This document shows, piece by piece, positions 17,174-20,188 of a stretch of 30,171 nt of DNA. The notes under the pieces are model-generated. The model searched no databases. It was not told the DNA's origin and saw only the letters and a list, made by a program, of their open reading frames with translations. The translations under genes were made by a program, and so were the position numbers. Within the stretch, counting starts at the first letter, position 1. Each line of letters opens with the position of its first letter. The stretch spans positions 1 to 30,171 of IMG/VR virus record IMGVR_UViG_3300025687_000207, one strand, 5' to 3'. This stretch comes from a virus.

Positions 17174-17295
17174 CACCCCGCACCCCCTAGCTTAACCATC
17201 AAAGCCCACACGTTGTATTCGGTGGTGATGAAGTTAGTAAAAAACGTGATGGCAAACGCCGTCACAAACAACATTCCGATAGTGTCTTTAACCAT
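17173..17295 (-). CDS. 40-aa membrane microprotein
   Basis: A short ORF exactly filling the gap between the recombinase and HNH genes: its ATG overlaps the recombinase TAA and its TGA overlaps the HNH ATG. It has one hydrophobic segment (IGMLFVTAFAITFFTNFI) and a Lys/Gly tail (MVKLGGAG). The precise fit is the main evidence that it is real. Function unknown; a small inner-membrane effector or superinfection-exclusion peptide would be possible guesses. Confidence 0.5.
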   Translation of the reverse strand: MVKDTIGMLFVTAFAITFFTNFITTEYNVWALMVKLGGAG

Positions 17296-17924
17296 TAGTT
17301 TGCTCCCATTAGATTGCGCACAGTGCTGGCGTACCATTGCCCGCCCAATGCTGTTGGAATGCCAGCTTCATTGAGCTTGGCGGCGATGGTGCGTAGTGAG
17401 GCACCAGCCTCACGCAGCACCGAGACGATAGGCATTGCCTGCTTGGCAACGACGTTAGTACGCGCAACGCGCTTGGCCGCTGACGCACGGCCAGCAGCGG
17501 CAGGGTTGGGCGAGCCGAGCTTGACGCCGCGAGCCTTGGCGGCAGCCAGTGCGGCCTTGGTGCGCTCGCTGATCTTGCGGCCTTCCCACTCGGCGAACAC
17601 AGCGGCCATCTGCAAGAACGTGCGGTCGGCCTCTGGCATATCGGCGCAGACGATTGGCACGTTAGCCTCAAGCAGCCCGGTGATAAAGTGGACGTTACGC
17701 GCTAGGCGGTCGAGCTTGGCAATCAGCAGCGTCGCGCCAGTGCGCTTGGCCTCAGCCAGTGCGGCGGCAAGCTGTGGGCGCTGGGCTTTCTTGCCGCTCT
17801 CCACCTCGGTGTACTCGCCGATGATGTTGTAACCGGCGACTGCTGCGCGTTGCGCCTCAAGGCCAAGACCCGATTGGCCTTGGCGCTGAGTTGATACACG
17901 ATAATAAGCGATGTACTGGGTCAT
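17295..17924 (-). CDS. Small serine recombinase (resolvase/invertase family)
   Basis: A 209-aa protein; the ATG at 17924 is chosen because it overlaps the upstream stop and gives MTQYIAYYRVSTQRQ with catalytic S11. R9, the QRPQLAAALAEAK helix and AKLDRLARN (about residues 69-77) complete the resolvase core. The E-helix (GRKISERTKAALAAAKARG) follows, and the C-terminus (GASLRTIAAKLNEAGIPTAL) is a helix-turn-helix for DNA binding. The enzyme could resolve or invert DNA, or integrate it; its size is that of a small resolvase rather than a large serine integrase. No crossover sites were found by eye. Confidence 0.85.
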   Translation of the reverse strand: MTQYIAYYRVSTQRQGQSGLGLEAQRAAVAGYNIIGEYTEVESGKKAQRPQLAAALAEAKRTGATLLIAKLDRLARNVHFITGLLEANVPIVCADMPEADRTFLQMAAVFAEWEGRKISERTKAALAAAKARGVKLGSPNPAAAGRASAAKRVARTNVVAKQAMPIVSVLREAGASLRTIAAKLNEAGIPTALGGQWYASTVRNLMGAN

Positions 17925-18256
17925 TATGCCGCCGCCTTTTTGTCTGCGATTGCTGTCCAAGCTGCGTCAACATCGTCTGCCAGCTTTGACAAGTGGTACA
18001 TAAGCTGCCACTTGGTGTAGCTTTTCTCTTTATTGCAAACATCACGCAACCACTTAGCGTGGTAGTTGTCGTTGCGACCATAAAGCATTTCGCAACCAGC
18101 GAAGAAAACGTCACCGTGACAAAAATCATCAAAGCTGGGCAACTTGGCAACTAAACCATTTGGGTTAAACAAGTGAAAGCACACGATCTCATTCTTGGTC
18201 ATACCGTTGATGTGTGTTGCAGTGTCAAACACATACTCTGTAGTGAATTTAGCCAT
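17924..18256 (-). CDS. Hypothetical protein, first gene of the minus operon
   Basis: A 110-aa protein of no family I recognise. Notable parts are FCHGDVFFAGCEMLYGRND and YTKWQLMYHLSKLADDVDAA, with four Cys and many aromatics. No membrane segment or signal is visible. It follows a strong AAGGGAG ribosome-binding site and the divergent control region, and overlaps the recombinase start by one base. As promoter-proximal gene it should be expressed most, perhaps early; the function cannot be read from sequence. Confidence 0.55.
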   Translation of the reverse strand: MAKFTTEYVFDTATHINGMTKNEIVCFHLFNPNGLVAKLPSFDDFCHGDVFFAGCEMLYGRNDNYHAKWLRDVCNKEKSYTKWQLMYHLSKLADDVDAAWTAIADKKAAA

Positions 18257-18376: not shown

Positions 18377-18583
18377 ATGGCTGGGATAAAAAACCAAATG
18401 TTACGGCTCAGAAGCGACACAGTTGATAAGCTGCGGTTCGTTCTTGACATATCATCGCATCGCTCAATGTCTGCGCTGGCAGATGAACTGCTAGAGCAGG
18501 GGCTGGATCGGCGCATTGCGGCTCTAAGTGACAGCGACGTTGCCGCGCAAACGCTGCGCAGTTTGGCTCGCCGCGATGGTTAA
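18377..18583 (+). CDS. Ribbon-helix-helix DNA-binding protein
   Basis: A 68-aa protein. NQMLRLRSDTVDKLRF gives the N-terminal strand and first helix, and SHRSMSALADELLEQGLDRR the second helix, the layout of Arc/MetJ-type ribbon-helix-helix repressors. Such dimers bind palindromic operators; the 17-bp site about 90 bases upstream is an obvious candidate for autoregulation and control of the divergent operon. It is the first gene of the rightward replication block. Its stop overlaps the next start by 8 nt. Confidence 0.65.
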   Translation: MAGIKNQMLRLRSDTVDKLRFVLDISSHRSMSALADELLEQGLDRRIAALSDSDVAAQTLRSLARRDG

Positions 18584-19028
18584 TAGCAGAAACAAGGGGA
18601 TGGGCGGGGAACGCGAGATCATCGCAATCCTAACCGATGAGCTTGGCGGCGACGCTAATGGCCTGACGTTTCAGCGCGACATCAATCAATACAGGCAGTC
18701 TGATCTGGGCGACATCATTTGCAGCGACCCAGATTTTCCCTTTGTCATTGAGGTGAAACGCAAACGCGCCGGATATGGCATTGACCCAAACTGGTGGGAT
18801 CAGGTTTGCGCTGCGGCTCTGGCTACAGAGAGTGGCAAGCTGCCCCTGCTGGTCTATCGCTATGATCGCCTGCCTTGGCGCTGGCGCTTCCCAGTCGCAG
18901 CTATCGTCGGGATGGATGGCTTCGAGCCAACAGGCGACATAGCCGAGCAGTATGATTGGCGTTACGCGGTCGAGTGCGACCAAATGACAGCGATGATGAT
19001 TGTCAGGGAGCATCTGGCTGATGCTTAG
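18576..19028 (+). CDS. PD-(D/E)XK nuclease, Holliday-junction-resolvase-like
   Basis: A 150-aa protein with the ATG at 18576, eight bases inside the previous gene; a longer frame from 18528 adds an implausible head. SRNKGMGGEREIIAIL gives E12, QYRQSDLGDIICS gives D46, and FVIEVKRKRAG gives E59-x-K61, the complete PD-(D/E)XK set. The spacing and GxxxERE opening resemble phage resolvases of the Hjc-like branch. It may resolve branched replication DNA before packaging. An alternative is the nuclease half of a restriction-type system, since a cytosine methyltransferase follows at once with an 8-nt overlap. Confidence 0.68.
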   Translation: MVNSRNKGMGGEREIIAILTDELGGDANGLTFQRDINQYRQSDLGDIICSDPDFPFVIEVKRKRAGYGIDPNWWDQVCAAALATESGKLPLLVYRYDRLPWRWRFPVAAIVGMDGFEPTGDIAEQYDWRYAVECDQMTAMMIVREHLADA

Positions 19029-19779
19029 GATGCTCGACCTATTCAGCGGCATTGGCGGCTTTAGTTACGCTGGCGAAAAGCTGGTGGGTGGCTATGAAAC
19101 AGTTGCGTTCTGCGAGTATGATAAACACGCGCAGAAGGTCTTGCGAAAGCATTGGCCGAATACAGAAATTATTGATGATGTGAGGGAGCTGGCAAATGAC
19201 GCAGATAGATTTAGAGGATTGGTTGACATCGTTGTCGGGGGATACCCGTGCCAGCCGTTCAGTTATTCCGGGGTCAGACGCGGCGATCAAGATTACAGAC
19301 ATCTCTGGCCAGCGATGCTTGCAGTTATCAAAAAGGTCAGACCGACTTGGGTCATTGGAGAAAATGTTGCTGGACACATCACTCTGGGCATCGACACGGT
19401 GTTATCTGACTTGGAAGCCACAGGTTACAGCGCAAGGACGTTTATTATTCCGGCTGTCGCCGCAGATGCACCACACAGGCGAGACAGATGTTGGATTGTT
19501 GCACACGCCGACAGCGACAGCAAATCAGATGGCTCCATTAATGGAAAAAAGCGGTTGGTGGGAGACACCACAAGCACACGATGCGAAAGTGGGCAAAAAT
19601 GGTCGCGGTCTTGGGGCGAAATTTCAGGACAACAATGGTGGGAAGCTGAACCCTCAATTTGTAGAGTGGTTGATGGGTTATCCGGTCGGGTACACAGAAT
19701 TAGACAGTTAGGCAATAGCATCGTGCCGCAGGTGGCGGCGCGTATATTGTGGGCAATTAAAGAGGCGCATAATGGCTAG
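19021..19779 (+). CDS. DNA (cytosine-5) methyltransferase
   Basis: A 252-aa protein that would methylate cytosine at carbon 5 using S-adenosylmethionine. Motif I is MLDLFSGIGGF (from residue 4), motif IV GGYPCQPFS with nucleophile C77, motif VI GENV (113-116), motif VIII APHRRDRCWIVAHA (150-163), and motifs IX/X lie in GRVHRIRQLGNSIVPQVAA. The target-recognition region between VIII and IX is short (about 65 residues) and Ser/Gly/Trp-rich. The start at 19021 overlaps the nuclease stop by 8 nt; an in-frame ATG at 19030 is also possible. The role may be protection from host restriction. Much of the gene is also open in the +1 frame (separate entry). Confidence 0.88.
   Translation: MLRMLDLFSGIGGFSYAGEKLVGGYETVAFCEYDKHAQKVLRKHWPNTEIIDDVRELANDADRFRGLVDIVVGGYPCQPFSYSGVRRGDQDYRHLWPAMLAVIKKVRPTWVIGENVAGHITLGIDTVLSDLEATGYSARTFIIPAVAADAPHRRDRCWIVAHADSDSKSDGSINGKKRLVGDTTSTRCESGQKWSRSWGEISGQQWWEAEPSICRVVDGLSGRVHRIRQLGNSIVPQVAARILWAIKEAHNG
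19196..19711 (+). CDS. Overlapping +1-frame ORF inside the methyltransferase gene
   Basis: A 171-aa frame embedded wholly in the methyltransferase gene. It has its own GGAG seven bases before the ATG. Its translation carries motifs I recognise from a phage protein family associated with Dcm genes: LWASTRCYLTWK (about 63-74), GRLLFRLSPQM, GLLHTPTATANQMAP (100-114) and KLNPQFVEWLMGYPVGYTEL (150-169). The same bases encode EPSICRVVDGLSGRV of the methyltransferase in the other frame. Either both frames are translated, or this is a conserved remnant of a frame exchange. Function unknown. Confidence 0.5.
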   Translation: MTQIDLEDWLTSLSGDTRASRSVIPGSDAAIKITDISGQRCLQLSKRSDRLGSLEKMLLDTSLWASTRCYLTWKPQVTAQGRLLFRLSPQMHHTGETDVGLLHTPTATANQMAPLMEKSGWWETPQAHDAKVGKNGRGLGAKFQDNNGGKLNPQFVEWLMGYPVGYTELDS

Positions 19780-20188
19780 GCCAATGTATGAAACCGAGGC
19801 CGACAGACGCAAAGAGCAGGCATTAGCCGACGCCTTTGCGGCTCACGGTTACGATTTCTACAAGCTGCCAATACAGTATCGCCTCGACTTTGTGGTGTTC
19901 AAAGACAACGAGGCCAAGGCATTTATTGAGGTGAAGCATCGCAATGTGCGGCTGTTGCAGTACGACACAGCGATGATTAGCCTGTCGAAAGTTATACAAG
20001 CGAGGACGCTGACGCAGCACACAGGCTTGCCAGCGTATCTGTTGAACGTGTATCAAGATTGTATCGCCCGGTTTGATTTCGCTGGCGATTATACATTGGG
20101 GAAGGGTGGCAGAAGCGACAGAGGCGATGCCCAAGACGCGGATATCTGCGCCTATTTCCCGATCCGAGCCGCAACGGTTGTGCGGTAG
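19772..20188 (+). CDS. PD-(D/E)XK-type nuclease
   Basis: A 138-aa protein. The core is ADRRKEQALADAFAAHGYD (E15), YRLDFVVFKD (D39) and AFIEVKHRN (E53-x-K55), the D...ExK set of the PD-(D/E)XK fold. The C-terminus (ARFDFAGDYTLGKGGRSDRG) is Gly/Arg/Asp-rich. It overlaps the methyltransferase by 8 nt, making that enzyme flanked on both sides by nucleases. It may process replication or recombination intermediates; a restriction role is possible but unproven. Confidence 0.62.
   Translation: MARPMYETEADRRKEQALADAFAAHGYDFYKLPIQYRLDFVVFKDNEAKAFIEVKHRNVRLLQYDTAMISLSKVIQARTLTQHTGLPAYLLNVYQDCIARFDFAGDYTLGKGGRSDRGDAQDADICAYFPIRAATVVR

Follow-up and report, generated by a model that had tools for sequence, protein, structure and literature searches.

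A conserved protein carrying motif IX is nested in the +1 frame of a phage C5-cytosine methyltransferase gene

The window analysed here, which is the whole 30,171-nucleotide stretch of the virus record IMGVR_UViG_3300025687_000207, contains a C5-cytosine methyltransferase gene (D, 19021..19779 (+), 252 aa) and, entirely within it, a second open reading frame in the +1 frame (B, 19196..19711 (+), 171 aa). The question raised by this locus is whether the same bases encode two proteins and, if so, what the second protein contributes. The original prediction had proposed dual coding, or an ancient frame switch that gave rise to a new protein family from Dcm. The features on which it was based were placed correctly: B starts with an ATG that lies 7 nt 3′ of its own Shine–Dalgarno sequence, AGGGAG (19183..19188 (+)), and it contains STRCYLTWK (19391-19417) and LLHTPTATANQ (near 19496-19528). 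The best start for D is the ATG at 19021, which is preceded by AGGGAG (19005-19010, 10 nt upstream) and overlaps the stop of the upstream gene. Two putative PDDEXK nucleases, at 18528-19028 and 19772-20188 (Pfam PF24608 PDDEXK_15 and PF24579 PDDEXK_14), flank the methyltransferase gene and overlap each of its ends by a few bases, and a serine recombinase/DNA invertase-like gene (17295-17960 (-); phrog_125, 2e-35) lies near it on the opposite strand.

D resembles an ordinary C5-cytosine methyltransferase (C5-MTase) over part of its length. It matches phrog_363 (1.3e-74) and PF00145 (E=2.6e-36), and motifs I, IV (PCQ), VI (ENV) and VIII follow one another in order on a single chain: DLFSGIGG (motif I, 19036..19059 (+)), GYPCQPFS with the catalytic Cys (motif IV, 19240..19263 (+)), GENVAG (motif VI, 19357..19374 (+)) and HRRDRCWIV (motif VIII, 19474..19500 (+)). 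B reads DTRASRS over motif IV, and its conserved G-LLxTPTA begins over the end of motif VIII. The PF00145 match covers only residues 2-167 of D and ends there. In C5-MTases, the target-recognition domain sits between motifs VIII and X; here, the D frame across 19502..19642 is low-complexity filler (HADSDSKSDG...QQWWEA). Motif IX, which PF00145 enzymes carry on the same chain, was absent from the D chain and was found in the +1 frame instead, and motif X (QLGNSIVPQVA, 19705..19737 (+)) is again in the D frame. Canonical single-chain enzymes such as M.HhaI and M.HaeIII have the same motif total, and D matches their profile over motifs I–VIII, but in those enzymes all motifs are in one frame.

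The original prediction called for a search for homologues of the +1 frame, and these are numerous. A tblastn search with B returned 82 phage records (E to 1e-28), the match falling within a methyltransferase gene in those examined, and phrog_1008 matched B (3e-30) as well as 119/119 B homologues. Profile searches assigned B to no Pfam, NCBIfam or PADLOC family. The suggestion that B represents a separate phage protein family fared less well, as no standalone B gene was found, although similar phage proteins would lead one to expect some, and every B match examined sat in a methyltransferase gene. Among 80 viral loci fetched with B and two phage records, B lies in an open frame on the methyltransferase gene in all 82, and it is offset by +1 from the best D segment in 81/82; in the exception, L070, the B motif and D motifs I–VIII share one frame. 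The same B protein has been annotated as a nested gene in Lily_63 ('g62 internal gene'), K1H ORF28 (within ORF29) and Bloom_57 (within 56), under the labels methyltransferase, 'Mte8-like' or internal/hypothetical, and the +1 ORF is present and unannotated in N15 gp58 and Bas74. Three families that match B, phrog_1008, phrog_31772 and phrog_10223, are named 'DNA methyltransferase'; B lacks the catalytic motifs I–VIII, and these names are therefore misleading for it. No published account of the nested family, or of a role for the phrog_1008 B protein, was found in the literature searched.

Stop codons were counted in each frame to assess whether the +1 frame is coding. The B-peptide pattern search of viral loci is biased towards PQFVEWLM and draws on B's own peptides, so a further sample of loci was drawn through D residues 1-58, which lie outside the overlap with B, giving 80 viral and 80 bacterial-genome loci from this methyltransferase subfamily rather than from C5-MTases at large; each D gene, shuffled among its synonymous codons, provided the null model. 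Within this unbiased set alone, 104/121 genes were free of +1 stops from motif IV to motif X (5.1 expected), with 44 +1 stops in total compared with 519 expected, and +2 stops numbered 1169 (1180 expected). Addition of the earlier B-fetched loci gave 135 non-redundant genes, in which +1 stops occurred at chance 5′ of B (176 versus 168 expected) and were depleted over motifs IV–VIII (2 versus 342) and VIII–X (18 versus 225), with the +2 frame at about chance over IV–X. The +1 stop frequency falls from 0.088 per codon to about 0 within about 10 codons of the PCQ motif. By contrast, canonical C5-MTases with an in-frame motif IX (n=12) had as many +1 stops as expected by chance.

The +1 frame also scores as a protein. 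A profile of B trained on viral sequences gave 157 bits on bacterial-genome genes and 62.5 bits on their shuffles, and 55/55 genes beat all 20 shuffles. The recognition zone alone scored 73 bits, compared with 7 bits in shuffles (43/43), and the stretch over motifs IV–VIII alone scored 89 bits, compared with 51.5 (42/43). That shuffles still reach 62 bits calls for caution, because conservation of D by itself creates some B-like similarity. Around the start of B, an ATG with a Shine–Dalgarno match of at least 4 nt was present in 72/134 non-redundant genes, compared with 20.9 ± 4.1 in synonymous shuffles. B is thus a conserved protein under its own selection, and the dual coding originally proposed has strong support from separate homologues, stop depletion, a dedicated start site and synonymous change that is suppressed both ways.

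The last of these observations, for which the original prediction had also asked, reveals which frame is selected where. In the zone that B does not overlap, change per D codon position is.124/.080/.401, the ordinary wobble. Over motifs IV–VIII, third-position change in D is halved to.209, and D is still the better conserved protein there. Over VIII–X, the pattern becomes.236/.097/.088, D position 1 being B position 3. The wobble has moved to B's third position, which makes VIII–X primarily B-frame sequence. Pairs in the first comparison had been picked by shared B words, and the analysis was therefore repeated with frame-neutral nucleotide selection: over VIII–X, B was conserved better than D in 45/49 pairs (p=8e-10), and D position 1 changed more than position 3 in 46/49. 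When all pairs chosen by D similarity were used, the signal over VIII–X was diluted (B.447, D.445), because many such pairs lack homology across this zone. Many gene pairs are near-identical up to motif VIII and then only ~30% alike, a sharp drop that would fit exchange of the recognition domain. The substitution pattern among the relatives indicates that the target-recognition zone, 19502..19642 (+) in the window, is coded primarily in the B frame. An overprinted look is limited to the N-terminal half of B, over motifs IV–VIII, and to the VIII–X stretch of D.

Immediately 3′ of this zone, the original prediction had described two motifs on the same bases, and both are present: 19646..19702 (+) reads LNPQFVEWLMGYPVGYTEL in the B frame and EPSICRVVDGLSGRV in the D frame. 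B's LNPxFVEWLMGYP is motif IX of the C5-MTases. The family form, LNPxWVEWLMGFPxGWT, aligns with canonical motif IX (M.HhaI LHPRECARVMGYPDSY), and hhalign recovers this match, over 19 columns only, at P=1e-4 with the motif profile and 0.006 with the full B profile, in identical register. The motif IX profile had no match in the PDB. Among 98 non-redundant genes, scored with a motif IX profile built from family members, motif IX was in the +1 frame only in 94, in the D frame only in 3, in both in 0 and in neither in 1; it was never in +2. The D-frame reading of these bases, taken earlier for a motif of Dcm (EPxxxRVVDGLxxRV), is not a catalytic Dcm motif. In phage Firecracker, the D frame spells IRRVDDGLARRLG 3′ of the stop of D (gp6), where it is untranslated, and the supposed motif is thus largely an out-of-frame shadow of motif IX. 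The single gene without a recognisable motif IX in any frame, L196 (2001-2750), nonetheless has an open +1 frame.

By computation, then, B is conserved and carries motif IX, and selection on the VIII–X zone acts mainly through the B frame. From these sequence patterns, the locus very probably encodes a heterodimeric C5-MTase in two frames, with D holding motifs I–VIII and X and B holding the recognition zone and motif IX. The original prediction recognised the dual coding and missed motif IX and the split enzyme. The alpha subunit (D) would supply the catalytic and AdoMet motifs I–VIII and the C-terminal motif X, and translation of the beta subunit (B) would begin from a separate ribosome-binding site within the alpha gene. 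A single mRNA would thereby yield two products that assemble into the active enzyme, in which beta may bind alpha, recognise DNA and be needed for methylation. Such orphan methylation may protect the phage against host restriction, and specificity could change by swapping the zone between motifs VIII and IX. A heterodimer would give a role to the C-terminal half of B and none to the N-terminal half over IV–VIII. An AlphaFold2 model of B alone was poor (pLDDT 65.6, pTM 0.28), and no fold match was found for it. The proposal that a new family arose from Dcm by a frame switch is accordingly only partly right: it does not hold for the C-terminal half, which is the enzyme's own missing zone plus motif IX, whereas the N-terminal half does look overprinted.

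In the two-polypeptide C5-MTase M.EcoHK31I, the small polypeptide is encoded in an alternative frame within the gene of the large one, and both are needed in vitro; the D/B locus shares this gene arrangement. M.EcoHK31I, which recognises YGGCCR, has motifs I–VIII and X on the large polypeptide and motif IX on the small one (PMC3404938), the same motif layout as here, and it is the closest precedent of the D/B locus. Its target-recognition domain has been assigned, by a literature prediction, to the large subunit (PMC3404938), whereas the VIII–X zone here is selected in the frame of the small polypeptide. M.EcoHK31I is also part of a restriction–modification system, whereas the phage locus is an apparent orphan. 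A second two-polypeptide enzyme, M.AquI (CYCGRG), is split after motif VIII, its small subunit holding the distal variable region and motifs IX–X (PMC3404938); motif X is thus on the small subunit in M.AquI and on the large subunit here.

A layout resembling that of M.AquI occurs in Firecracker (L339, 1212-2157), a partly overlapping split. There, gp6 contains motifs I–VIII and stops after the last of these, whereas the +1-frame product gp5 combines the recognition zone with motifs IX and X. A split of this kind may be the origin of the nested form, the upstream frame having been extended until it recaptured motif X. For the cluster O mycobacteriophages (Corndog/Firecracker), the authors saw no splicing, noted coding potential in the overlap and similar arrangements elsewhere, and detected no product of the methylase pair genes by mass spectrometry (PMC4351075). 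These pairs resemble the D/B locus in having overlapping +1 genes for an N-terminal methylase half and a C-terminal half; unlike in the D/B locus, their overlap is only partial and motif X is on the second product. Whether the Corndog pair yields two products or one frameshifted product was left open (PMC4351075), which raises an alternative for the nested genes, namely that ribosomes that have passed motif VIII undergo a programmed +1 frameshift, or a hop, which fuses the N-terminal part of D to the recognition zone and motif IX of B, with no B start. A single shift from gp6 to gp5 in Firecracker would indeed yield a complete I–X chain. In the nested form, however, ribosomes would have to shift a second time to reach motif X, which lies in the D frame. 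Moreover, a shift at that point gives no reason for the +1 frame to stay open over IV–VIII, where stops are nearly absent, nor does it account for selection on B in that stretch or for the enrichment of Shine–Dalgarno–ATG pairs at B starts. We consider this explanation improbable.

A third arrangement of the same enzyme, with motif IX in alpha and beta reduced to its recognition-zone part, occurs in three loci (L171, L179 and L275). In these, motif IX is in the D frame and motif X follows in frame; the +1 frame has acquired stops, yet it retains the part of B that spans the recognition zone. Across the recognition zone of L171 and L179, 129/143 B residues are conserved, compared with 112/143 in D. 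The PF00145 match on the D chain of L275 reaches 319/324, versus only 167 in the window, and phmmer aligns this chain, weakly, to the IX–X region of M.HhaI. In a structural model of L275, motifs I–VIII and X are confident and the D-frame stretch 169-275 has pLDDT <50 (predicted disordered); ~163 columns align with M.HhaI.

These loci bear on a second alternative, that B is made as a protein but has a function unconnected with D, such as regulation or counter-defence. The conserved N-terminal half of B, its lack of a known fold and the absence of a PADLOC, Pfam or NCBIfam entry would be compatible with such a role. However, B holds the motif that D is missing, it drops motif IX and keeps the recognition zone where D has a motif IX of its own, and it has not been seen apart from a methyltransferase; an independent B therefore seems about as improbable as the frameshift. 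That B is not a protein at all, its frame merely appearing conserved owing to the conservation of D, has a negligible chance of being correct: the shuffle scores show that some of the resemblance and some of the database matches do arise as a by-product, but the profile scores, stop depletion, codon-position reversal, Shine–Dalgarno enrichment and frame exclusivity of motif IX far exceed the shuffles.

Beyond this locus, the nested arrangement recurs in more than 100 diverse phage and bacterial methyltransferase genes. Probably, although with less assurance than for the locus itself, a large, deep-branching group of phage and prophage methyltransferases consists of obligate dual-coded heterodimers, whose specificity half lies in the +1 frame and is swapped through the B frame over alpha filler that is tolerated. 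Under this reading, the overlap between the two halves of the enzyme has led gene callers to overlook one of them. Long genes nested on the same strand are rare, and claims for them are usually contested; in the present case, more than 100 non-redundant genes are in support, the functional split between the frames is clear, and canonical enzymes, single-chain variants and partly overlapping variants serve as natural controls. The heterodimer would make M.EcoHK31I, a curiosity of 1995, an example of a widespread class, and it favours two products for the Corndog-type methylase pairs. It would also account for the many annotated phage 'Dcm' proteins in which both the recognition domain and motif IX are missing, and an annotated ORF cloned with recoded codons would probably yield an inactive enzyme. 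What appears to be new is the scale, the evidence for a recognition zone held by beta, the finding that motif IX is exclusive to one frame or the other, and the existence of three types of arrangement. In a few loci, L070 (2365-3129), L214 (from 2501) and L074 (2703-2939), the D frame runs into B or ends early; decay of the copy, an indel introduced by sequencing or a fusion could explain this.
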